From: Riptortus pedestris
Taxonomy: Eukaryota; Arthropoda; Insecta; Hemiptera; Alydidae
Direction: 5' to 3'
Assembly (NCBI GenBank): GCA_019009955.1
Contig: CM032231.1
Coordinates: forward strand, 44,124,501-44,188,500
DNA length: 64,000 nt
Below, piece after piece: positions 4,795 through 57,650 of this stretch (position 1 is the first letter of the stretch; each line of letters starts with the position of its first letter). Under the pieces are notes generated by a model that saw nothing but the letters and a program-made list of their open reading frames with translations, did not search any database and was not told the DNA's origin. The position numbers and the translations under genes were made by a program.

Positions 4795-4946
4795 TGAAAT
4801 AATTTAACTATAGATAACCTGTGGACTAGGTTTTATTAGACAAAATGTGTCACATGTTGACTGAACAAAATCACTCTCTACACTAAATGAGGTTTGGTTA
4901 AATAACATGTGTTAATTAAAACAATTGAATAATAAACAATATATCA
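4795..4946 (-). repeat. 3' LTR of the gypsy element
   Basis: 152 bp, TG...CA in either orientation, and identical to 8635-8786. The first three LTR bases on the minus strand (TGA, 4944-4946) are also the stop codon of Pol. The block TTTTGTCTAATAAA (minus strand, 4832-4845) is complementary to the primer-binding region at 8620-8633. If that block marks the RNA start, U3 is about 101 bp and R+U5 about 51 bp. Confidence 0.95.
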
Positions 4947-7628
4947 TTTTCCCCCACCAACATAAAAGTCCTGGAGATAAGCTGGAGGGCGACGATTTCT
5001 AGAGCTGCGCCTGAGAGCTGGGGGAGGGGGTGACGGCAGAGCCACCGGGCTTGGTTCATCTACTTGATTTCTGGGTGAAGTAGGTTCACCTCCTGATTCT
5101 TCATTTTCTAGCAAGCCCTGGTCCTGGTTCAAATTGGAGTCCATATGTTGTAGCTGGGTATCCTCTTGTCTAGCTCCTTCACTGCTATATGTAGGGGTTG
5201 GGGCCAAGTGCCTCGTAGATACAGTAGTCTCTCGTCCGTCTGGCAGTCTGACATGGGCGTACTCCGGGTTCGCCTCTAGAAGAGTCACTTCATCCACCAG
5301 CGGTTCGTACTTGGACTGTCTGACGTTTCTACGAAGAAGGACTGGGCCAGGTGTGAGAAGCCAGGAGGGAGTGGAACTACCATTACCCGATTTCCTGGGG
5401 TGTTTGAACATCCGTTCGTGAGGAGTCTCGTTCGTAGCGGTGCACAGAAGAGAACGGATAGCATGAAGAGCATCGTCGACGACAAGCTCCCACTGATGAG
5501 TCCTTAATTGCTTTGTTCTGAGAGCTAATTCAATGGTCTTCCAGACTGTGCCCACGAATTTTTCTGCTTGCCCATTCCCTTGTGGGTTGTATGGCGTGGT
5601 CCGACTTGTAGCTATCCCATTGGTGGTTAAAAATGTTTTTAGTTCGTGAGACATGAAGGAAGATCCCCTATCAGTATGTATATAACATGGTAGTCCAAAT
5701 ATAGCAAATAAAAATTGTAATTTATTTTTAACAGTCGATGCTGAAAGGTCATGACAAGGAAATGCGAAGGGGTATCTGGAGAACTCGTCAACTATAATCA
5801 GGAGGTAACGGTTTCTTGTATTGGTTGGTAGTGGTCCTTTAAAGTCTATGTTAAGTCGCTCCAATGGTCGTGTCGCCTTTATAAGATGCCCTTCTTGCTT
5901 ATTGAACCTCGGTTTCAGCTCAGCACAGATCTTGCATGACGTCGTTACTTTCCTAATGTCTTCCAGCGAGTAAGGCAAATTCTTTATTTTTACCCAATGA
6001 TTCAATCGAGTGACTCCGGGATGACATAGTTCTTGGTGAAGTTCTTTGAGCTTGTTAAAATTACATCCGATCGCCGAACATATTCTTGACAACGCGTCTG
6101 CTGCTTCATTCTGACGTCCCGGTCTGTATACAATTTCATAATCGAAGCAGGATAGTTCAAGACGCCAACGCAAGATTTTCTCGTTCTTGACTTTGCCAGG
6201 TTGTTTGCCATCGAACATAAAAGACACGGACTTTTGATCTGTAATAAGCCTAAAGTGCCTCCCTAGTAGATAGTGACGCCACTTTCTTGCTGCCTCTACT
6301 ATCGCGTAGGCTTCTTTCTCCACCGATGAATGTCGTCGTTCGGAAGTGTTGAGAGTTCTAGAGAAAAATGCTACAGGTCGACCGTTCTGCGAAAGTGTAG
6401 CTCCTATTGCATGTTCAGAAGCATCTGTTTCAACTGTAAAGACGGCTTCTTCATCAATAGCACTGACTAAAGCGTTTTCTATGTCTGATTTTAGTATTTC
6501 AAAAGTTTGAGCTGCTCGATTATTCATGGGAAACGGACTTGATGTCAAAATGTTAATTTTCTGAGAAAACTGAGGAATGAAATTAGAAAAGTGTGAAAAC
6601 ATTCCCATTGCTCTCTTCAAGGTGGCTGCATTCGTAGGTAGGGGTAGCTCACGTAAGGATTGGAGACGGTCCGGATCAGGGCGTATTCTTTTATTGCTTA
6701 CGACAAACCCGAGTAATTTTATCGAACGGACGGAGAAAATACTTTTTTGTTCATTGATTGTCAGACCATATTTTTCTACAGCTTTTAAAAATTTCCTCAG
6801 GTTTGCGTCATGTTCCGCTTGATCCTTCCCACATACCGTTATGTCGTCCAAATATGCATAGACTCCCGTAAGTCCTTCTCGAGTAATTATGTTATGGATC
6901 GTCCGTTGAAAGCAAGCAACTGCATTTCGTGGGCCAAATGGAATGCTCCGGAACTGCCACAATTTGCCAGCGGCTTCGAACGCTGTAAATGGCTTATCTT
7001 CGTCCGTTATCTGTATTTGGTGATACGCACTTTTGAGGTCGATAGAGCTGAAGACTTCGTAGCCCGCTACGGTGTTCACGATATCGTCAATTCTCGGCAA
7101 GGAATACGCATCAAGTTGTGTATATCTGTTAATTGTCTGTGAATAATCGATCACCATGCGCCGTTTGTGGTTCTCTGTCTGCGTAACGAGGACCTGAGCT
7201 CTCCAAGGGGAATAACTTTCCTCAATTATGCCGTCTTTCAATAGTTTTTGCACTTCTAGTTCGATAAACTTGGCATCGGAGGTTGAGTGACGTCGAGACT
7301 TAATCGCAATAGGCTTCACATCGCGCGGGACGTTTCTAAATAGTCTTACTGGCTCAACACTCGCCATGGTAAGCCCACAGATATTGAGAGGGTCCCGGGA
7401 TCCCCCAAATTTAATTTTGATAGACGAATGACTACTTAGAACATCGTGTCCTAGGATGGCGTCTGCACAAAGATCAGAGAGAATATTGAGTGTTACTCCG
7501 GGGTAGAAATGATTTTCTATCTTCAAATCTACTCTGCAAGCCTTGTTAATTGTGGAATTCAGGGTAGTAGACGCCATGGATACCGTTAAATGAGTTGGTA
7601 AGATTGTGGCTCTCAACTGCCTAGCTTT
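4944..7628 (-). CDS. pol: Pol: protease C-part, RT, RNase H, integrase (gypsy element)
   Basis: An open frame of about 894 codons directly after the UAG that ends Gag, in the same frame. Any apparent start at 7616 is TTG, so this is a Gag-Pol continuation, not a separate gene. Counting residues from 7616: protease C-part ILGHDVL (about 54-60); reverse transcriptase with SIDLKSAYH (Asp 193) and YLDD (255-258); RNase H with TDAS (Asp 398) and a second Asp at 460; integrase zinc domain H527/H532...C561/C564; integrase core Asp 590, Asp 649, Glu 685, giving the canonical D,D-35-E spacing. The C-terminal tail is Pro-rich with no chromodomain seen. It ends in VGGGK encoded by the polypurine tract, then TGA from the LTR. 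All catalytic residues are present, so only the UAG argues against activity. Confidence 0.95.
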   Translation of the reverse strand, partial: KARQLRATILPTHLTVSMASTTLNSTINKACRVDLKIENHFYPGVTLNILSDLCADAILGHDVLSSHSSIKIKFGGSRDPLNICGLTMASVEPVRLFRNVPRDVKPIAIKSRRHSTSDAKFIELEVQKLLKDGIIEESYSPWRAQVLVTQTENHKRRMVIDYSQTINRYTQLDAYSLPRIDDIVNTVAGYEVFSSIDLKSAYHQIQITDEDKPFTAFEAAGKLWQFRSIPFGPRNAVACFQRTIHNIITREGLTGVYAYLDDITVCGKDQAEHDANLRKFLKAVEKYGLTINEQKSIFSVRSIKLLGFVVSNKRIRPDPDRLQSLRELPLPTNAATLKRAMGMFSHFSNFIPQFSQKINILTSSPFPMNNRAAQTFEILKSDIENALVSAIDEEAVFTVETDASEHAIGATLSQNGRPVAFFSRTLNTSERRHSSVEKEAYAIVEAARKWRHYLLGRHFRLITDQKSVSFMFDGKQPGKVKNEKILRWRLELSCFDYEIVYRPGRQNEAADALSRICSAIGCNFNKLKELHQELCHPGVTRLNHWVKIKNLPYSLEDIRKVTTSCKICAELKPRFNKQEGHLIKATRPLERLNIDFKGPLPTNTRNRYLLIIVDEFSRYPFAFPCHDLSASTVKNKLQFLFAIFGLPCYIHTDRGSSFMSHELKTFLTTNGIATSRTTPYNPQGNGQAEKFVGTVWKTIELALRTKQLRTHQWELVVDDALHAIRSLLCTATNETPHERMFKHPRKSGNGSSTPSWLLTPGPVLLRRNVRQSKYEPLVDEVTLLEANPEYAHVRLPDGRETTVSTRHLAPTPTYSSEGARQEDTQLQHMDSNLNQDQGLLENEESGGEPTSPRNQVDEPSPVALPSPPPPALRRSSRNRRPPAYLQDFYVGGGK
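4947..4958 (-). other. Polypurine tract
   Basis: The minus strand reads GGTGGGGGAAAA immediately before the 3' LTR TGATAT. This is the usual plus-strand DNA primer. It is also coding sequence: it supplies the last codons of Pol (GGGK) just before the LTR-encoded stop. Confidence 0.85.
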
Positions 7629-8603
7629 CTATTCTGAAATGAAGCTAAGTGAACTCCCTGTATCTATAAGAGCCCGGGCTTTTATTCCGTTTATTTTAAC
7701 TGGAATGATAGCTTTCCTGAGACAAGAATGGGTCGATGCGGACACGGCAGCACTTGTGGGCTTTTGGCACCGACAGCCCTTGACAAAATTCCTTCGAGAG
7801 TTACGACAAACTTTGGCGAAGTGGCCAATCTTGTTACAGGCCTTACAGATCTGTTCACGGGCAGGGCAAGATGTCCTCAGGTGGTAGTCGTACCCGCAGA
7901 AGTGGCACTTCTTTTTAGCAGCAGCTGCAACCTTCCCGGAGTTGCCCCCTGAGGACTGAGAAGAGGACCTAGACGAGTGTAGGGAAGGCTTGGATGAACG
8001 GACTAAGGAATTAGACGAGCGTATGGAGTCCCTGGGGCCCACCCTCTGGGACCGGACTGCGTTGACCGACTGTTCTTGGTACTGAAGGGACTGTTCTATT
8101 GCCGACTCTAGGGCCTTTGATTGTCTCGAGGCTTCATCAAGGGTAAGGTTAGGACTCTCTAATAATCTTTGGCGTATGTTGGACTCACGGAGACCGGCAA
8201 TGAAAGCGTCTCTTATGCAATCATTACGGTTAGTCTCGGCCGTTACGGCTTTGAAATTGCAGTCTTTGCTAAGTAGCTTTAACGCTTCTAAATATTTTGT
8301 AACTGATTCGCCAGATTGTTGCCGCCTAGTCGCTAACTTGTGACGTGCAAAAACTTCGTTCACCGACTTTGTAAATGTGCTCTTTAGGACGGCAATGGCA
8401 TCATTGTAAGTACCGCATTCGTTAATTAACTCGTAAACGACCGGAGATACGTGATTTACCAGTATGCGTAATTTCTCGTTGTCACTTACTTGGTAAGTTA
8501 GCAGGAAGTTTTGAAACGTCTTGTACCAGTGGTTCCATTCAAGTGATGCAGTTTGTGAATCCGCTTCGATTGCAAGCCGCTCCGGTCGAAGTAATTTATC
8601 CAT
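7629..8603 (-). CDS. gag: Gag with start of protease (gypsy element)
   Basis: A 324-residue frame beginning MDKLLRPERL just after the primer site. The first ~180 residues are a retrotransposon Gag capsid-type region (around WNHWYKTFQNFL and ARHKLATRRQQSGESVTKYL). A Ser/Arg-rich linker follows. Two CX2CX4HX4C zinc knuckles lie at about residues 233-246 and 253-266 and would bind genomic RNA. The aspartic protease active site ALIDTGSS (Asp about 314) follows. The frame then ends at UAG (7629-7631), only about ten codons after the DTG motif, so the protease is cut before its flap and the ILGHDVL motif. Pol continues in the same frame directly after the stop. Either the UAG is a disabling mutation or expression of Pol needs readthrough. 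Confidence 0.93.
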   Translation of the reverse strand: MDKLLRPERLAIEADSQTASLEWNHWYKTFQNFLLTYQVSDNEKLRILVNHVSPVVYELINECGTYNDAIAVLKSTFTKSVNEVFARHKLATRRQQSGESVTKYLEALKLLSKDCNFKAVTAETNRNDCIRDAFIAGLRESNIRQRLLESPNLTLDEASRQSKALESAIEQSLQYQEQSVNAVRSQRVGPRDSIRSSNSLVRSSKPSLHSSRSSSQSSGGNSGKVAAAAKKKCHFCGYDYHLRTSCPAREQICKACNKIGHFAKVCRNSRRNFVKGCRCQKPTSAAVSASTHSCLRKAIIPVKINGIKARALIDTGSSLSFISE

Positions 8604-8619
8604 AGTCTTAACAATTTTT

Positions 8620-8633
8620 TTTTGTCTAATAAA
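8620..8633 (-). other. Candidate self-priming primer-binding site
   Basis: Directly after the 5' LTR (one base between), the minus strand reads TTTATTAGACAAAA. It lacks the TGG that pairs with a tRNA 3' CCA. It is a perfect 14-nt reverse complement of TTTTGTCTAATAAA inside the LTR (8672-8685 minus). In Tf1/sushi retrotransposons the 5' end of the RNA folds back on the PBS and primes reverse transcription; the match suggests the same mode here. That is inference from complementarity. Confidence 0.6.
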
Positions 8634-8634
8634 T

Positions 8635-8786
8635 TGAAATAATTTAACTATAGATAACCTGTGGACTAGGTTTTATTAGACAAAATGTGTCACATGTTGA
8701 CTGAACAAAATCACTCTCTACACTAAATGAGGTTTGGTTAAATAACATGTGTTAATTAAAACAATTGAATAATAAACAATATATCA
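8635..8786 (-). repeat. 5' LTR of the gypsy element
   Basis: Identical to 4795-4946. In element orientation it starts TGATATATTG and ends TTATTTCA. The transcript would start inside it and run toward lower coordinates. Confidence 0.95.
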
Positions 8787-32376: not shown

Positions 32377-33080
32377 CTATAAACAAATAACAGCAGTAGG
32401 TAAGATTTTCCTTACATAATTTCCAAAATCATCTACATTAAAGTTATAACTATGCATGCGAGTCTCAAACTCTTTATTCTGTGGAAAAATACGTCTGTTT
32501 GTTGCTATAATAGTCGGTGTTTTAGTCACCGGTCTGTGTGTTTTATATTTTATGTTTGCAGAGATATTGGCCCCAGAAAAAGGAGTTTGAAGCTTTCGCT
32601 TCCGGTTCAACGGATGGTTCGTCCAACCGGTAGTCTATACAATCTTCGAATGGAAATTGAATACTTATTATAATTTCCAACTATTCCATAATTAATCATT
32701 AGTTCTGACAGCACAGACGAAAACCACGTTTTACCACAATCGGGAGGGCCATAGAATTCCATGAACATCCTTTTGCTAGATTTCTTCGAAAGTAATAAAT
32801 ATATCCTTGTTAGAAAACTGACTGAGGTAATATAATAACATAATAATGTTGTGCTTGAAATTCTAAAAATTCTTCCAAAAGTGAGATAGACGTAGTCGTA
32901 ATAATCTTCTAACACATTGCCATCTATTGAACTATATAATTTTAGAACGTTAGTGCCCAAATGTATATTACAAAGTTCAATAAACACATACGTCCTAACT
33001 TCTGTATGTATATATCCATTAATTGTATTAACACTGGATTCGAATTGGTTTATAGACCATAATCTGACTCTGACCATACC
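32377..33080 (-). pseudogene. Endogenous parvovirus-like NS1 (SF3 helicase) fragment
   Basis: Two overlapping minus-strand frames carry the halves of a superfamily 3 helicase as found in the NS1 replication protein of parvoviruses, densoviruses in insects. The upper frame (33077 to 32607) holds a Walker A loop, GPPDCGKT, in its C-terminal third. The lower frame (32610 to 32377) holds the motif C region with TPTIIATN and a following FETRM block. The two halves are in different frames, and the Walker B region between them is not recognisable, so there is at least one frameshift and probably a deletion. No start codon region, nickase domain or capsid gene is seen. This is a decayed endogenous viral element and not a functional gene. 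A bidnavirus or another SF3-encoding virus is an alternative source. Confidence 0.7.
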
Positions 33081-33247
33081 CTTGAACGGTATGCGAGAGA
33101 AATGGGAGTGATACCAATTAACTATCTAACGCAATGTACGCTCTTAGGGCCTTTTCTATCATTTTATCCATTTCAGTACTTGCTGTTTTGTTTTCTAACC
33201 AACGGATTAATACGGTACTTAAACATTAAAAACCCAAAGATAGGAAC

Positions 33248-37616: not shown

Positions 37617-40448
37617 TGACCATTCCTTCATATTGCAAACTGACTATGACCATTCTTTCATATTGAAAACGGACTATGACCATTCTTTCATATTATAAAA
37701 GGACTATGACCATTCATTCATATTGCAAACGGACTGTGAACATTCTTTCATATTATAAACGTGCTATGACCGTTCATTCATATTGCAAACGGACTATGAC
37801 CATTCTTTCATATTATAAACGGACTATGACCATTCATTCATATTGCAAACGGACTATGACCATTCTTTCATATTATAAACGGACTATGACCATTCATTCA
37901 TATTGCAAACGGACTATGACCATTCTTTCACATTGAAAACGGACTATGACCATTCTTTCATATTATAAACGGACTATGACCATTCATTCATATTGCAAAC
38001 GGACTATGACCATTCTTTCATATTATAAACGGACTATGACCATTCATTCATATTGCAAACGGACTATGACCATTCATTCATATTATAAACGGACTATGAC
38101 CATTCATTCATATTGCAAACGGAGTATGAACATTCTTTCATAATGAAAATGGACTATGAAAACTCTTTCATATTCAAACGGACTATGACCATTCATTCAT
38201 ATTGCAAACGGACAATGACCATTCTATCATACTGCAAACTGATTATGACCATTCTCTAATATTACAAACCGACCATGACCACTCGTTGATATTCAAAAGG
38301 ATTATGAACATTCTACCATATTGCAAATGGACTATGACCATTCATTCATATTGCAAACATAATTCAATCGTTCATTCATATATCGAACAGAATATGATCA
38401 TTCTTTCATATTGCAAACGGGCTATGACCATTCTTCCATAATGCAAAAAGACTATGCCTATTCTTTCATATTACAAACCGACTATGACAATTCTTTCATA
38501 TTGCAAACGGACTATTGCCATTCTATAATATTGGCAATGCACAATGACAACTCTTTCATAATGCAAACGGACTATGACCATTCCTACAAATTGCAAACGG
38601 ACTATGACCATTCTTTCATATTGCAAAAGAACTATGACCATTCTTGTATATTGCAAACGGGCTATGACCATTTATTCATATTATAAACGGACTATGACCA
38701 TTCATTCATATTGCAAACGGACTGTGAACATTCTTTCATAATGAAAATGGACTATGAAAACTCTTTCATATTCAAACGGACTATGACCATTCTTTCATAT
38801 TGCAAACGGACTATGACCATTCATTCATATTATAAACGGACTATGACCATTCATTCATATTGCAAACGGACTATGACCATTCTTTCATATTACAAACCGA
38901 CTATTACAATTCTTTCATATTGCAAACGGACTATGACCATTCTTTAATATTTCAAACGGACAATGATTAATTTTTCATATTACAAACCGACTATGACAAT
39001 TCTTTCATATTGCAAACGGACTATGACAATTCTTTCATATTGCAAACGGACTATGATCATTCTTACATATTGCAAACGGACTATGACAATTATTTCATAT
39101 TGCAAACGGACTATGACCATTCTTTTATATTTCAAACGGACAATGATCATTCTTTCATATTACAAACCGACTATGACCATGCTTTTATATTAAAAACGGA
39201 CTATGACCATTCATTCATATTGCAAACGGACTATGACCATTCTTTCATGTTGGAAATGGACTATGACCATTCATTCATATTGCAAACGGACAATGACCAT
39301 TCTATCATACTGCAAACTGACTATGACCATTCATTCATATTGCAAACGGACAATGACCATTCTTTCATATTATAAATGGACTATGACCATTCTTTCATTT
39401 ACCAAACGTACCGTGACTATTCTCTTATATTGCCAAAGAACTATGACCATTCTTTCATATTGCTAACGGATAATGACCATTATTTAATATTTCAAACGGA
39501 CTATGACCATTCTACAATATTGGAAATTGACAATGACCACCCTTTCATATTACAAACCGACTATGACAATTCTTTCATAATGCAAATGGACTATGGCCAC
39601 TCTTTCATATACAAACGGACTATGACCATTATTTTATATTGCAAAGGGATTATAACCATTCTTTCATATTGCAAACGGGCTATGACCATTCTTTTATATT
39701 GAAAATGCACTATGACCATTCCTACAAATTGCAAACGGACTATGACCATTCTTTCAAATTACAAACCCACTATAACCATTCTTTCATATTGCAAAAGGGC
39801 TACGACCATTCTTCCATATTGCAAACAGACTATGACCATTCTTTCATATTATAAACGGGCTATAACCATTCTCTCATATTGCAAACGGACAATGACCATT
39901 CTATCATACTGCAAACTGATTATGACCATTCTCTAATATTACAAACCGACCATGACCACTCGTTGATATTCAAAAGGATTATGAACATTCTTCCATATTG
40001 CAAATGGACTTCGACCATCCATTCGCAATGCAAACATAATTCAATCGTTCATTCATATATCGAACAGAATATGATCATTCTTTCATATTGCAAACGGGCT
40101 ATGACCATTCTTCCATAATGCAAAAAGACTATGCCTATTCTTTCATATTACAAACTGACTATGACAATTCTTTCATAATGAAAATGGACTATGAAAACTC
40201 TTTCATATTGCAACGGACTATTACCATTCTTTCATATTGCAAACGGACTATGGCCATTCTTTCATATTGCAAACTAACTATGACCACTCTTTCTAATTGC
40301 AAACGGACTATAACCATTCTTTCATATTGCAAGTGGATTATGACCATTCTTTCATTTTGCAAAGGAACTATGACCATACTTTCATATTTTAATCGGACTA
40401 TGGCCATTCTTTCATATTGCATACGGATTATGACCATTATTTCATATT
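37617..40448. repeat. 30-bp satellite array, about 94 units
   Basis: The unit is 30 bp; its first 20 bases are close to GGACTATGACCATTCTTTCA. About 2.83 kb long. Because 30 is divisible by three and stop codons are rare in the unit, several plus frames and some minus frames stay open for 60-140 codons and encode decapeptide repeats such as MTIHSYCKRT. These are not genes. Higher-order structure is visible: at 37680-38110 units alternate strictly (60-bp pair), and a diagnostic ~287-bp run of variants at 38211-38497 recurs at 39888-40174. Confidence 0.95.
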
Positions 40449-41702
40449 CCTTTCCCTGTACACATTTATTTTTGCTGAATTTTCCTCGTTGCAGTGAATT
40501 AGCTATCTTTTAGAGTCTTACTCATTTCCAATGGATCCATGTATGGATAGTATCAATATCCAATGGTTGGAGCACACAACATGAAAATATATTCCCACGT
40601 TAGAGGGATACTCTGCGTGGAAACAGGAAAAAAAAAAAATAAGGAATAATTATAATAAATTAGGAATCAATCAGGTATGAACGTTTTCGGTGATGTAGAC
40701 CTCTATCTTCAAAGCTATTGCACTGCTTTCAGGACGCAACATTTGACGAGAATTGTCTCAATAAATTTAGTGCAATATCTTTGATGATAAAAGCTTGAAA
40801 CTTTTATTATTATTATTTATAGATAGGTGAATGATATATAACCTTCTACACTAAAATTTTCAATTTTAGACAGCAATCCACCTATCAGTGTTCGGCAAAA
40901 ATAAGAAGAATGGTTTAAATCTGAATAGTGAATAATATTTTCCTTTATTCAATGGATAACCTAATTTTTTATTTATATTCATTGTTCAATAAGACTGATT
41001 TATTTTTACCTATTTACATAGGTTTGTTCTTCTAAATATCATCTTTCTCGCAGACATTACGTAAAAAAAAAAGTTTGTTCTTATACACGATAATATTCTT
41101 TGAGTTTTGGAATCGCTTCATGACTTCTTCATCAGACGAAAGCTGAAAATGTTATTTTACAATAACATTTTCAGCTTTTAATTTGAAATAGTTTTATTGT
41201 TGCCCAATACCTCTTTCATATTTCGAATTTGATGATTATGAAATAATTTATTTTTTTTGGTTTATGGTAATAATAACTGGATCACTACTGTGTCCATGAT
41301 TTTTTTCCCTAGCATCATTACTAGAAAAATGCAAATCATGAATTATTTTATTTTTTATTGGAGCTTCAGCTAGCGATGACGCTGCTCAAAACCAAAGCTT
41401 CATAAATTTAAACAACAACCAAAATTAATTTAAACGAAATGAAATCTAACAGAAAAACACAAACAAAGCAGAAATGCAATACAAAAACACATATGAAATA
41501 CAAATACAAAAATGGAACATAGCAAAGACAAAAACTGTCTTTTTGATACTGAAGTGTAATGGGTATGTATAGGCTACTTCACTGAGTAATTGATGTAGGT
41601 CGTGAGGTATCTGTGAATGATCTCCTCTCTTGCAGTCTGTCAGTATGTGTTTTATTGTAAGAGTCAACTTCCATACAATGCATTTGGTCTGCTCCCTGTT
41701 TT
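40449..41702. other. No gene seen
   Basis: AT-rich. It contains a perfect 18-bp inverted repeat at 41139-41178 (separate entry). Confidence 0.4.
41139..41178. repeat. Perfect 18-bp inverted repeat, 4-nt loop
   Basis: AAAGCTGAAAATGTTATT at 41139-41156 is the exact reverse complement of 41161-41178 around TTAC. No adjoining T-run or gene suggests a terminator. It may be a collapsed pair of transposon ends. Confidence 0.9.
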
Positions 41703-50425: not shown

Positions 50426-50922
50426 TGTTACGTTTTTATTACAAAACCAGTAATAAACGATGTTAATAAGAGTTCTTTTGGATTGCAAAATTAAACACAC
50501 ACACAAGTTTCACAGTTTAACACTGCACGATTTATTTCACAATGTACAATACTCTTGGTTAATTATTACTACTCACAGTATTACACTGATAGTGTCACTG
50601 TTCTTCAGATTACACAGTCCAATAATTCACTCACGGTCACTGAAATTCACATAAAACGACGGCACTGCACTGTCCTTTACTTCGCGGCACTGCACTGTCT
50701 TAAACACGCACTAAACTGTTACTTACAGTCACGGCACAACACTGTTCTTCTAATAAAAACACTTTACCGCACTGCACTAAGTCGCACTGTAGCACTGATG
50801 TGACCATCAAGACATCTGACCATAAAACTGAGGCGCGAGATACTGGCAGGGTCTCTTATAAATGCCTGTAGAAGGGGCTAGCCAAGGAACGGTCTAGAAG
50901 TTCCAGGAAGATAGGCACGGCG
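50426..50922 (-). repeat. LTR of gypsy element 2, part 1 (outer part)
   Basis: Starts at the LINE junction with TGTTACGTTTTTATTAC, a typical LTR terminus. It contains repeated GCACTGCACTGTC blocks and a minus-strand TATA context CATTTATAAGAG at about 50860. It stops exactly where the Transib begins; its continuation is 54172 to about 54310. Total LTR length is about 636 bp. The inner LTR boundary is uncertain. Confidence 0.6.
50918..50922. repeat. Transib target-site duplication, left
   Basis: CGGCG directly before the heptamer CACAGTG. The same five bases follow the right end at 54167-54171. GC-rich 5-bp duplications are characteristic of Transib. Confidence 0.9.
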
Positions 50923-50951
50923 CACAGTGCATCGACCATTGGACAAAAATC
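50923..50951 (+). other. Transib left end, 12-RSS-like
   Basis: Heptamer CACAGTG (50923-50929) identical to the V(D)J heptamer, 13-nt spacer, nonamer-like ACAAAAATC (50943-50951), 8 of 9 identical to ACAAAAACC. Confidence 0.85.
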
Positions 50952-51409
50952 AAAAATTGTACTATTTTCTAACAGGAATATTATTATTTAAAATCTATTA
51001 ATAAACCTTCGTACACAATCTGATAGGATTATATCATTGTTTACTTTTTTTTTTAAAGTCAATAAAAGGGGCGAAGTGCAGCTATTATTCCTTTTGCAAT
51101 AAACACCTTGTTAGTATCAATTTATGTTTCTTATTGGAAGTACCTAACTTTTTCTTAAAATTACACCTCCAAGCATGGAATTCACAGGCCCGGGTATGTA
51201 TATAAAAATGCCATATTGCAATTGCGAAAATTAAATCGTTAGATAAATTTGCACACCTGCCTTTAATTTGACTGAATTTTGTTAACATTAAAACTTTAAA
51301 TACGTTTTTAAAAAAATCATTAAATATCATTTCGTACTTTTTGCATATTCTTGAAGCATTGAGTGTGCACTTTTATTTTCATTATAGTTTATGTGCTTCT
51401 GAGTGCCCC

Positions 51410-53398
51410 TTTACTTGTAGTATTATTTTTTTCAATAGATCGAGTCATCAGAACTCACGCCCAGCTGGTAGAAATATGTTTTAAGCACAAAAAAGCTGTC
51501 CGTATAACTAAGGTCAAGGAAGAACTATGTTCATTAATGAATTTTGAAGACCCGAGTGACGAGTTTAAAAAGAAATAGCAAAGATAAGTAGGTTTTTTTG
51601 TCTTAATTTTCAAAATAAACTAAAAGAATCCCGAAGGGATCGCAATAAAATTTTATTTGGAAAATGCTTCTTGGCTTCAACAAGAGGTTCAAAAATTATC
51701 CTTGCTAAGACCAAGACATAGTTTGTTTAGGCAGCATGGACCAAGTACTTCACGGGGAAGGCCAAGGACACCCTTCGAAGAATCATCATTAAAAATAAAA
51801 AAGAGCTCATAAGACATCTGCTGAGCTAGCATTTGCCGCCGATATTGCTAAAAAATCGTGTAATCGTAATCCGAAGTCTTCGTTAAGCTGTCATCAAACA
51901 TTAGCTCTATATTTAGATTTAGATTTATCTGAAAGAAAATATAAATTATTAAGATCTGTTGTAAATAGTGTGCAAAAAGATTGCTTTCCCTCCTTGTACG
52001 CATTAAATTTATATAAAAATACTCTGTTTCCAACGCAGATTACAGCCAATGAAATTTCTGCTTCCGTAAACTTGTAGGAACTTCTACAACTAACATCGCA
52101 GAGTATAATAAAAATCGTGTGCCAAGAAAATTTTTCTAAAGAACTGAAGTTAATATGTAAATTTGGGATTTGACGGCAGTTCCGGCCACAGCCAGTATAA
52201 ACAAATGTTCGAAAATGCATCAAACAGCTTTAGTGCCATTAAAATTGGTGGAAGTGTGTAATGGAAAAGATGTGTGGGTCAATCCGCGTCCATCTTCCAC
52301 CCATTATTGCAGGCCCATAAAATTTATTTAAAAAAAGAAAAACCTGAACTAGTGCTTGATGTGGAAGAGACGACTAAAAATTCAATTAGCCAGCTTCGGA
52401 CTTACGATTTTACATTAGAAAGCGGTCAAAGGTGTAGCATTAATTTCGAGATGTTGTTCACAATGATAGACGGTAGTATTTGTAACATATTGTCTGACAC
52501 AAATGCCACATCTAGGTGTTTTATTTGTAAGGCTACGCCAAAAGATATGAACTCTGAAAATGTACTAAATCGTCCACCTGATGAGAAGCAATACCGCTTC
52601 GGGCTGTCAACACTGCACATCTGGATTAGATTCTTCGAATGCATCCTGCACGTAGGCTACAGACTACCTATAAAGAAATGGCAAATTCGAGGGACCGAAC
52701 ATAAGGAAATTGTAGAGGCTAACAAAAAACGAATTCAAACTGAATTTAAAACAAAAATGGGCTTATTGGTTGACAAACCGAAACCAGGATATGGCTCAAC
52801 GAATGATGGAAATACGGCAAGGCGCTTTTTTTCAAACCCTGATCTTGGTTCTGAGATTACCGGTGTAAACAAAGAGTTAATTGTACAGTTCTCCATTATT
52901 CTAAGGGTGTTGGCCGCTGGTTATCCCATAAATTTAGATAGTTTTCAGTTGTTATTGGACGAAACTAGGGACCGATATCTATCTTTATACGACTGGTTTT
53001 ATATGCCTAGCAGTGTCCACAAAATTTTAATTCATGGACGTGAAATAATCGCTTCCTTTTCCTTGCCAATTGGACAGTTGTCTGAAGATGCAATTGAGGC
53101 AAGACACAAAGAAGTGAGGAAAAACCGATTAAATCACACTCGCAAATGTTCAAGAGTAAGCTCTAATATTGATTTAATGAGAATATTATTATTGACTTCT
53201 GAACCTCTCATATCGTCTAAGCGAAAAATTCTCACAAGTAAAAAATTTAGATATGATGATGTGGAGATTCAGAAGTATATTAAACTACCAGTCGAACTTT
53301 CAACATCTACCGATGAATTTGACAAAATGGACATCGGCATTGGTGACATAAATATAGATTCAGAAAGCAGTAGCCAAGAAGATGATGAATCAGATTAA
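51410..53398 (+). pseudogene. RAG1-like Transib transposase, N-terminal half broken
   Basis: C-terminal part 52320-53398 is one long open frame (nominal start at 52274 is GTG in the wrong frame). Numbering from 52274: CX2C in CFICKAT (82-85), GLSTLHIW (110-117), NTARRFF (180-186), HKILIHG (249-255), LSEDAIEARHKE (269-280) with the likely catalytic Glu 271 or 276, and an acidic tail. Upstream, FDGSSGHSQYK (Asp codon at 52172) and WVNPRPSSTHYCRPIKF parallel the CDG and CCKPLC regions of RAG1. In-frame stops lie at 52075 (TAG) and 52259 (TAA), and frameshifts near 51800, 52165 and 52320. The family cuts DNA at RSS-like ends through hairpin intermediates. I could not assign the second catalytic Asp. 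The N-terminus is uncertain; a Lys-rich frame at 51423-51578 may belong. Confidence 0.82.
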
Positions 53399-54127
53399 AT
53401 AATGTTATTTACTAAATATCAATATTGAATTATTATGTGTAGTTAAATATTTTATATTGTATATTGTATGTAGATAAATATACTATGTATTAATCTGTAA
53501 TGGAGTGTTTTATGTTACATTATGTAAAATGATCTTTTTATTGGCTTACTAACTTGTTTTTCCGATAACTTTCATATTTTTATATTTTCCTGATAACTCT
53601 AACACTGATAAATTGAAGGTTCAATAAATTCAAAATTATAATATTGTTACCTACAACTATACCCTTAGGCGAAATTTATTTTGATAGAATCTGTTGTTTG
53701 GTTCAGAAACCTAGATTTTTTTTAAACACATTATCCGACTATTTTGGAAGGAATATATATATGTACTTGTAATAAGCATAAAATTTTCTATAAGGATCAA
53801 TAGAAATTATCATTTTGTCCACTTCGATCAGTTACTCGAAGCACTGTGCGATCCCCTCCCCGCCTCCCCCCCAAAAAAAATCTCCTTTGCTAAACAGTAA
53901 ATTCGGGTATGTAGGGAATTTAATGTAGTTTTCAATACCGTGATAAAAAAAAAAAAAACCCTTAATTTTGTAGAGATGTCGACAAAGAAAATAGTGTCAG
54001 TGTCTCGCACCAGATTTTTTTTTCTCAACCAATCATATTGCTTGTAGGCTTATTCGATTCAGCTAATCATTCTCTTCAATTTGTGCTCTATTCATTTTTT
54101 CGATTGGAGGCTTCCTTTTTGAGTTAT
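53399..54127 (+). other. Transib 3' noncoding region
   Basis: AT-rich sequence between the transposase stop and the right end, with plus-strand AATAAA near 53620 (TTCAATAAATTC). The 318 bases between the internal and true right ends contain a C-rich run and no coding sequence. Confidence 0.5.
53810..53848 (-). other. Internal second 23-RSS-like Transib end
   Basis: Minus strand: CACAGTG (53848-53842), exactly 23 nt, ACAAAATGA (53818-53810). The spacer resembles that of the true right end (C-T-GAGTA). The flank CGATC does not match the left CGGCG, so it is not the end used for this insertion. It may be a duplicated or captured end. Confidence 0.7.
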
Positions 54128-54166
54128 TAATTTTGTTCGCTTTGCCCATATACTCAATGCACTGTG
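54128..54166 (-). other. Transib right end, 23-RSS-like
   Basis: Minus strand: heptamer CACAGTG (54166-54160), spacer of exactly 23 nt, nonamer-like ACAAAATTA (54136-54128), 6 of 9 to consensus. The flanking CGGCG pairs with the left flank. Confidence 0.85.
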
Positions 54167-54171
54167 CGGCG
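54167..54171. repeat. Transib target-site duplication, right
   Basis: CGGCG directly after the terminal CACTGTG at 54160-54166. Confidence 0.9.
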
Positions 54172-54361: not shown

Positions 54362-56415
54362 TTAATTTTCGCAACACTGCCACCCACTTAAGCCTTTTTC
54401 GTCCCGAATAGGCTCAATATCGCCGTTACCATACTTGGCCAGTCGCTCTAGGTGTACCACTTTCATTTTAGACCTCGGATTGTGGTATCTCTGAATCCTG
54501 TAGACCACGTCGTTCAATCTATTGATCACCTTGTAAGGTCCCTCCCAGTGCGTCTGCAATTTAGGCGATAGTCCTTTCTTGCGTTGTGGGTTAAATAGTA
54601 GAACCATTTCTCCTTCAGTGAATCCCTCCGTATTTACGGCTCGATCATACCTGGCTTTCATCTTGTCACTTGTCATTTTAATACGGTTGCGTACAAACTC
54701 TTGAAGCTCATCCAGGTCTTTCTGTACCTGGGAAGTATTTCCATTGGCTTCGCAGGACCGTCCGGGTTTGGCCCCAAATTCCAAATCCGCTGGCAGTCTT
54801 AGTTCTGCTCCAAATATGATTTTCGCTGGAGTACGGGAGGTGGAATCATGGACGGCTGACCGGTATGCCAGAAGAAATTTTGGTATGTGCACATCCCAAT
54901 CTCTTTGGTGTGTACTAACCACTTTCCTGAGATCCTTTCAACCATGCCATCAGATTGTGGATGAAGCGGTGTCGTTCTTGTATTTTTGATGCCGTACAAT
55001 TCACATATTTCCTTGAATATGGCCGATTCGAAATTTCGCCCCTGGTCTGAATGGAGTTCTATTGGAACCCCCTATCGGCACACCCAATTATTCACAAACG
55101 CATCCACAACTCCTGGTTTGGAATGGCATACACTTAGGGCCATTTGCTGAAATAGTCCATTACAACTAGGACATACCGGTTTCCAGCTTCGCTGACAGGG
55201 AATGGACCAGCAACATCAATAGCTATCCGCTCGAAAGGAGCACCTGCGTTGTACTCCTGGAGCTTGCCACTACTTCTTCTCGTTGGTCCCTTAGCTGCAA
55301 TGCACTGTTCGCAATTGGCTATCCAATCGGTTACAGATTTCTGACATCCCACCCAGTAAAATCGTTGTTTTATATTTTCCAGGGTTTTTGTAATGCCCAG
55401 ATGACCTCCGCTGGGACCGTTTTGGAACTGCTTCAATACCTCATTTATCTTGGAAGTGGGCACGGCAATTAGGTCGGTTGTGGTTTTGCCATCTGTGCTC
55501 TCCCAAGATCGATATAAGCAGCCCTCTACCAGTTTTAGGCTATTCCATTGGACCCAGTATGATTTCGCAAGTGGGTTTCAGCTGATGTCTCATTACGGGG
55601 CGGTCTTCTGTTGCCGTCCTTAGCCGATATAATCTTCGCCAGAATCGGGTCATCTTTCTGAGCCTTCGACCAGACCTCGCCTGAGCCAATTCGGGTAAGT
55701 CGCACATCAATCACGCTTTCCTCCTTCTCGGCTTTAGTACAGTGTTTGCATTCTACGTTGCATGGGCGTCTTGAAAGAGTATCTGCGTTATTGTGATTCC
55801 CCCCTTTTCGATGCTTAATGCTGAAGTCATAGCTCTGCAGACGTTCAATCCATCGTGCCAGCTGCCCTTCTGGGTTCTTGAATTGCAGCAGCCAACGTAG
55901 TGCGGAGTTGTCTATTCTTAAGGTGAAGTGTTGACGATACAAGTATTTGTGGTAACGCACTCCAACGCTGCCAGAAGCTCCCGTCGGGTCACACAATAGT
56001 TTCTTTCTGGCTTGGAGAGTACCCTCCTGTAGTAGCCAATGTCTTTTTCTGCCCCATGAGATGTCTTTTTCCCATCCCTGAGAAAGCACTCCTCCTATTC
56101 CATAGCCGCTCGCATCCTTGTCAACTATGAATTTCTGGCCTGCTATGGGATTGGCAAGGACTGGTGCTGTGCACAAGAGCTCCTTGAGCCTTTGGAAAGC
56201 ATCTTCCGCTGCCTCACTGCAGTGGTATGGTCGGGACTTTTTGGTTAGGTCATGCAAGTTGGCAGCTACCTGAGCGAAGTTTGGCACGAATCTCCTGTAG
56301 TATGTGCAAAGCCCCAGGAAGCTACGCAGCTCATGAAGATTACGTGGTCGAGGCCAGTCCTTTACTGACCATAATTTGTCCTCGTACGGACGAATATGTA
56401 ATATTCGAGGAGGCT
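54362..56415 (-). pseudogene. pol: Gypsy element 2 pol relic, 5' truncated
   Basis: The minus strand begins abruptly within the RT thumb (VKDWPRPRNLHELRSFLG at about 56360). RNase H follows (VDKDASGYGIGG; IDNSALRWLLQF; HNNADTLSRRP), with a stretch in between read in the wrong frame, implying paired frameshifts. Next come the integrase zinc domain (GGHLGI...C-X2-C, 55463-55330), the core start AIDVAGPFP and MDYFSKWP (to 55134), a broken segment, TTPLHPQSDGMVER (about 54960), and a C-terminal GPY-type domain (HWEGPYKVINRL) to 54362. At least three frames are used. It resembles the 412/mdg lineage rather than element 1. Fused upstream to LINE sequence at about 56415. Confidence 0.88.
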
Positions 56416-57650
56416 GAGGTCTATAATTCTTCAGTTCTTTTTTATTTCCTTTCTTAAAGAGTAATATTATATTCACTTGTTCCCGTTCTTCTAGTATTTT
56501 TCCTATCATCTGCATGTAGTTGTAAAGGTTTGTTATGATGTTAACTAGAATATCTGCACCAACTTCATTGGCTCATTGTGATTTGGTCTGGGTTTGGTGT
56601 TTTTCCTTCTTCGGATCTTCCTATTGTATATTATTTAGAACAGATATTTCTTCAAAAAATTTTCAATTTCTTCTGGTTTTTCATCCCCTTTCTTCAGATC
56701 TCCAGGTCCATTTCCGCCATAAAGTTCTTCATAGTATTCCCTGATTGAGCTCATTTCCTCTAACTTATGCGCTGTCTTTGTTGATAAGTGCTGTTATTTG
56801 GGATTTTCTCGGGCTGGTAGTTTTTAATGTAGTTCTTGCTATCAGTGCTTCTTCTATCCCATTGATCTTTCTTTCCTTTAGCCATTCTTCAATCGTAGTT
56901 CTAATTGTTTGGCTTAGCTTTGAAAAGTTTGTTGATGTTGGTTTTCATCCTTAAATTTCCTTCTTTTCTTTAACATGTTCTTTATAGAACTTGGTAATTT
57001 CCTGTAGGCATCCACTTTTTTTATCATTATTGTGCTGCTTATTTGCTCAGTAATGCCTATAATGGTCTTAACTAAGCTTCTCTTCGTTTCTTAAGCATTT
57101 ATTTCCGGGAGAATTTTTTCAATAGTTGGTAATAGCTTTTCTTCAAAATTTCCTTTAGATGGCTGCTTAGCTGTAATTTCTTTGATAGGGTTTTTAATTT
57201 TCCTTTTAGTACCATTTGGCCTTGTATCTTTAGCTTGGCAATGAGGGGTTTATGGTCACTGCCTTAATCAATTTTGAATAAAGCATCTTCATTTTCACCT
57301 AGGGCTTTTCTGTTGGTTATGACGTAGTCTATTTCATTTTTTTTTCCATCAACATTCACCCACGTCCATTCCATCTTTTTAAATAAAGTATTCATTATCG
57401 AGAAGTTGTTCCCTTCAGAAAATGTTGCTAGCCCTTCTCGTCTCTCATTTCTTTTCCCAAGGCCGTTTATTCCCATACAACCTTCACTCGAGTTGCCAAC
57501 TATTCCATTTAAATCCCTAATAATTAATGTATACAAGGTTGCTCGTCAGATCCCTGCTGCATCTTTATATAGACAGTGATCATTGTGTTATCATCTCCTT
57601 GGCTTGTTGGAGCCTAGACTTGGATTTATTCAATACTACTTGTTGGTGTA
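56415..57650 (-). pseudogene. RTE-type LINE, endonuclease and RT start
   Basis: Minus strand: an apurinic-type endonuclease block with LIIRDLNGIVGN, GLGKRNERREGL, FSIMNTLFKK and EIDYVITNRK (57536-57264), a linker with broken frames, then the RT entry motif IILLFKKGNKKELKNYRP ending at about 56417. The frame runs straight into gypsy element 2. The missing continuation is found at 49330-50425, so only about ten codons seem to be lost between the two LINE parts. Confidence 0.82.

Follow-up and report, generated by a model that had tools for sequence, protein, structure and literature searches.

Transib ends and transposases described so far

HzTransib of Helicoverpa zea, an element of 3518 bp (PMC1852546), is reported to move by a cut-and-paste chemistry of nicking and hairpin formation (PMC6941560); its ends are heptamer-like, and the account that calls most Transib families symmetric (PMC8289069) says the same of its TIRs, in which it sees hardly any or no likeness to the nonamer. 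The origin of the 12/23 rule is an open question, and asymmetric Transib ends have been reported for few families. These few are the basis of a hypothesis in PMC8355894, where the legend of Figure 2, drawing on Kapitonov and Jurka 2005, gives 12/23 asymmetry for Transib5 of D. melanogaster and for Transib2, N1, N2 and N3 of A. gambiae. According to PMC9435367, all TIRs of Subgroup I Transibs are asymmetric while Subgroup II holds both asymmetric and symmetric ones, and an N-terminal nonamer-binding-type domain with GRP is already described there for both subgroups. ProtoRAG of amphioxus likewise has asymmetric bipartite ends and a 5-bp target-site duplication (TSD), as described in PMC8289069, but differs from the element studied here in its 27/31 spacing, its other end elements and the presence of a RAG2-like gene. 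Among the papers listed in searches of the open-licence literature, none deals, to judge by title and start of the abstract, with a beetle Transib that has asymmetric ends, which does not imply absence from print.

Both 12/23-type Transib ends and the Transib nonamer-binding domain are thus in print, and the copy described below is a degenerate addition to a known kind; what is new here is a third end-like site within the element. With HzTransib the copy shares the transposase core, the 5-bp TSD and a similar length, and it differs in carrying nonamer-like boxes at 13 and 23 nt where the HzTransib TIRs are symmetric with little or no nonamer. Transib5, Transib2 and TransibN1-N3 are likewise reported to have 12/23-type heptamer-nonamer ends, in other hosts, a likeness by description only.

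The element, its ends and its broken transposase gene

The window, that is, the whole stretch of 64,000 nucleotides that was analysed, contains the following features of the element.

50923..54166: Transib element, 3244 bp
50918..50922, no strand assigned: left TSD, CGGCG, from the sequence
54167..54171, no strand assigned: right TSD, CGGCG, from the sequence
50923..50951, plus strand: left (5') end, with heptamer CACAGTG at 50923-50929, a 13-nt spacer and the nonamer-like ACAAAAATC at 50943-50951
54128..54166, minus strand: right (3') end, with heptamer CACAGTG at 54160-54166, a 23-nt spacer and the nonamer-like ACAAAATTA at 54128-54136
53810..53848, minus strand: internal right-end-like site, with CACAGTG at 53842-53848, a 23-nt spacer and ACAAAATGA at 53810-53818
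51465..53398, plus strand: broken Transib transposase gene, remnants in three frames with stops, located by tblastn with five relatives
52262..53398, plus strand: longest open stretch of the transposase, 378 aa, matching HzTransib 6pqn at E=1.2e-78
51756-51767, plus strand: remnant of a GRPR motif, in a broken frame

An earlier note on this DNA had described the left end as CACAGTG, 13 nt and ACAAAAATC, the right end as CACAGTG, 23 nt and ACAAAATTA, and a perfect 5-bp duplication, CGGCG, around them; all three descriptions are exact to the base, the left end starting at 50923, the right end being read as the reverse complement from 54166, and the duplication lying at 50918-50922 and 54167-54171. 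Both ends start with CAC, within the RSS heptamer, and the duplication is 5 bp long, GC-rich and perfect on both sides, as is characteristic of Transib. By comparison with vertebrate RAG1 and its RSSs, the heptamer is identical, the left box differs from the vertebrate nonamer ACAAAAACC by one mismatch and the right box by three, the best boxes in the copy stand at spacers of 13 (left) and 23 (right), each within 1 nt of 12/23, and the transposase is homologous to RAG1 at the level of profiles. The element is nevertheless a transposon and not a recombinase locus, it leaves no room for a RAG2 gene, and the left spacer is 13 rather than 12.

The heptamer alone is not rare: CACAGTG occurs five times in the window against a shuffle mean of 3.40, and 25 of 100 shuffles held at least five. 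The combined motifs are another matter, CACAGTG followed after 12-14 nt by ACAAAA being found once (shuffle mean 0.00) and CACAGTG followed after 22-24 nt by ACAAAA twice (shuffle mean 0.01). When random pairs of 60-mers were drawn from the element and the box was taken as the best nonamer match with at most three mismatches, 103 of 200000 pairs had their best boxes at 13/23 and 837 of 200000 at 11-13/22-24; pairs from the whole window gave 100 and 809 of 200000, and all four counts are post hoc, motif and spacers having been picked after the ends had been viewed. A best box (at most three mismatches) at 23 is found for a share of 0.017 of window positions, and a box with at most one mismatch for a share of 0.00077 of element positions.

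Transposase remnants extend from about 51465 to 53398 through all three frames, with several frame changes (tblastn, five relatives). At least two stops fall in well-aligned stretches, one in the span 51811-52170 and one in the span 52224-52340; additional stops in the other two transposase spans lie at places where another frame fits better. The codons aligned to the DDE residues are still encoded (D at 52172, D at 52469, E at 53096), these positions being HzTransib residues given in PMC6941560 and transferred through the HzTransib alignments. To judge by its reading frames, the copy is a fossil that would not be expected to mobilise itself. Inside the element there is a single ORF of at least 150 aa, and what the transposase remnant does not take up amounts to no more than about 540 and 770 bp; judged by this room, and not by a RAG2 search, the element is without a RAG2-like gene. 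A tblastn search with 120 proteins gave 215 matches, all within the element, and no further Transib coding remnants in the window.

To the right of the element, at 54362-56572 on the minus strand, lie remnants of a Gypsy-type retrotransposon with RNase H, integrase zinc-binding and integrase C-terminal domains; the Transib would have inserted, with its 5-bp GC-rich duplication, about 190 bp past the integrase end of this retrotransposon. A second copy of the flanks was not found within the window at E 1e-3.

Kinship of the transposase and its N-terminal region

With the 378-aa open stretch as query, HzTransib (6pqn and five other entries) is reached at E=1.2e-78 and amphioxus RAG1L (6b40, BbRAGL) at an E of 0.08 only; a Pfam search gives no match. 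When a profile was built from 49 relatives, HzTransib came out at 3e-187, 15 RAG1 rows at E 2.4e-14 to 9.2e-10 and RAG1L 6b40 at E 3.7e-12. The RAG1-like transposase that had been claimed between the ends is thereby borne out, its broken state having gone unmentioned: HzTransib is reached directly, RAG1 through the profile of relatives. An AlphaFold model of the relative P0001, which has an open frame of 616 aa in its prediction, and not of the window's broken protein, has a pLDDT of 86.9 and superposes on HzTransib with a TMt of 0.92 for 6pqx and 0.61-0.77 for the other HzTransib chains; against RAG1 chains, TMq is 0.52-0.62 over up to 649 alignment columns. By these matches the transposase is of the Transib kind.

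The homology search returned 725 proteins, the best 120 of which were taken for analysis, 87 of them exceeding 450 aa. GRP occurs within the first 200 residues, followed by a basic stretch, in 51 of these 87; of the remaining 36, many start, by eye, downstream of that point, and some do not. The profile alignment A2 comprises 49 of the 51 GRP-bearing relatives (P0016 and P0044 were excluded) and was selected for the GRP motif, so that conservation of the motif in it proves nothing by itself. In the profile search, three stretches were aligned in 11 of the 15 RAG1 rows and two in 4 of the 15. The GRP stretch aligns to the RAG1 nonamer-binding region, weakly when taken alone (i-E 0.07, 0.13 and 0.16 in three RAG1 rows, with the motif-selected profile). 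In P0001, GRP stands at residue 50 while the alignment to the solved chain of HzTransib starts at residue 105; since this chain starts near P0001 residue 105, a counterpart of the GRP stretch of P0001 cannot be accommodated in it.

Among the best 120 of the 725 proteins, the species-named best matches to the transposase are beetle proteins. The Transib-like P0021, P0025, P0016, P0013 and P0035, from Sitophilus oryzae, Acanthoscelides obtectus and Anthonomus grandis, show 55-68% identity to the open stretch in the window across 68-90% of its length; they have a related transposase, and the likeness of these beetle elements is known from proteins alone. A midpoint-rooted FastTree of 69 sequences (the window, P0001-P0060 and eight more named ones, the gap filter having dropped none) groups the window with P0001 at a support of 0.998, within a nine-member clade that includes Sitophilus and Acanthoscelides (support 0.98); the next deeper node has a support of only 0.245. 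Judged from these relatives, the host would probably be a beetle. Scans of virus and prokaryote contig collections, which may lack records close to the window's genome, found no relative.

Unequal spacing, near-symmetry and the internal right-end-like site

Read inward from 53848, the internal site has the same arrangement as the right end, CACAGTG, 23 nt and ACAAAA, and it was absent from the earlier note. Its box ACAAAATGA has three mismatches to the vertebrate nonamer. The site and the right end form a 39-nt repeat of 77% identity, whose alignment score was reached by 0 of 2000 shuffles; identity per ten bases runs 9, 7, 5, 8, 4, 1, 3, 2, being high at the heptamer side, low in the middle of the spacer, high again at the A-rich box and lost after about 40 nt. 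Heptamer, 23 nt and box in both sites make the pattern that would be expected if one and the same selection had acted on two ends of the right type. Because the similarity fades after about 40 nt, the site would be a selected end and not a duplicated segment, and its origin by simple segmental duplication from the right end is disfavoured on the same ground. Also disfavoured is a nested insertion that would have its right end here and a duplication of its own: the site is followed by CGATC, the sole other CGATC of the element lies 24 bp upstream, and no matching left end was found in the element, where a decayed one could escape. As a hypothesis, the site may be a former right end, given up in a later jump for another end of the right type that lies 318 bp further out. 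Nothing else here speaks as strongly against an accidental 23 as this site, which supports that spacing at right-type ends independently.

The reading that we favour, with some reserve, is that of a dead cut-and-paste Transib copy whose ends, with boxes unequally spaced at 13 and 23, were read by a RAG1-like transposase when the element was active. A dimer of this transposase would make two contacts per end, with its catalytic core on the CAC heptamer and with its N-terminal GRP-type nonamer-binding domain on the A-rich box, 13 nt off at the left end and 23 nt off at the right, a difference in spacing of about one helical turn. By analogy with HzTransib, the flanks would then be nicked and hairpinned and the ends inserted 5 bp apart. 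We infer these contacts and this chemistry, and we extend the unequal spacing to the family of this copy less firmly than we ascribe it to the single copy, since 13 rests on one left end.

The most serious rival takes the ends for inverted repeats of the Transib type that are nearly symmetric, about 38-40 bp long and marked on both sides by A-rich blocks near +20 and near +31, so that 13/23 would amount to a choice among A-rich stretches. The left and right ends do align near-symmetrically, and nearly as well, with small gaps (26 nt, 80.8% identity, E 1.3), another box of the left end, at spacer 20, has three mismatches and so equals the right box at 23, the right end has a CAAA-containing sequence near 12-14, but with five mismatches, and one group of Transib TIRs is described with symmetric spacers of 20-22 bp (PMC8355894). 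The distal left-right score was reached by 32 of 2000 shuffles, and the score of the left end against the internal site by 6 of 2000; end-to-end scores vary with the scoring scheme chosen, and the asymmetric and the near-symmetric alignments are both given. Offsets hardly separate the two arrangements, a shift of 9-10 nt being only slightly better than one of 1 nt both from left to right (12/20 against 11/20) and from left end to internal site (12/20 against 10/20). What speaks against near-symmetry is that the best left box stands at 13 with a single mismatch, a quality as scarce in the element as given above, and that 23 is exactly common to the right end and the internal site, the latter having 6-7 mismatches at spacers of 12-14. 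We regard near-symmetric repeats as an unlikely account, though one to be taken seriously.

The left spacer of the family may originally have been of another length and have come to 13 in this decayed copy through a small insertion or deletion, as the frame changes and stops of the gene would allow. The box at 13, however, is the better nonamer match, and the left end is not visibly eroded, because any two of the three ends, compared over their first 13 nt, are alike at 11 or 12 positions; such a shift appears quite improbable. A CACTA or Chapaev identity, with the RSS resemblance due to chance, deserves almost no credence. CACTA elements make TSDs of 3 bp and Chapaev elements of 4 bp, against the 5 bp found here, the longest open stretch has no Pfam match, and the very strong match to HzTransib speaks indirectly against such an identity; nothing was found in its favour.

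For the dead copy with unequally spaced ends, the earlier inference that its family keeps a 12/23-like asymmetry stands in part: the RSS-like ends and the best boxes at 13 and 23 are present in the copy at 50923..54166, while the keeping of this asymmetry by the family is not established, given that the two ends also align near-symmetrically. A bolder version, which we put forward tentatively and think rather doubtful, is that of a beetle-type Transib lineage in which a RAG1-type nonamer-binding domain, without RAG2, reads a fixed and functional 13/23 asymmetry, and in which the left end would have abandoned the internal 23-type site, once its right-hand partner, on starting to pair with a second 23-type end 318 bp further out. 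If true, a 12/23-like pairing rule would be possible in a single-protein transposase. Given its apparently intact relatives, its GRP-type N-terminal stretch and its 13/23 pair, the lineage could be used to ask whether a RAG1-like protein alone enforces unequal spacing; the fossil copy itself adds one clear 13/23 example and an internal second right-type end.

Elsewhere in the window, a retrotransposon at 4944-8672 on the minus strand has long open frames, a gag-like one of 347 aa and a pol of 894 aa with reverse transcriptase, RNase H and integrase. A 157-aa frame at 40040-40513 on the plus strand, internally repetitive by eye and without a Pfam match, is probably no gene but a tandem repeat. 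At 32607-33125 on the minus strand, a 172-aa frame matches parvovirus NS1 at the borderline of significance (E=0.00029, 20.4 bits against a cut-off of 20) and is possibly an endogenous densovirus-like fragment.
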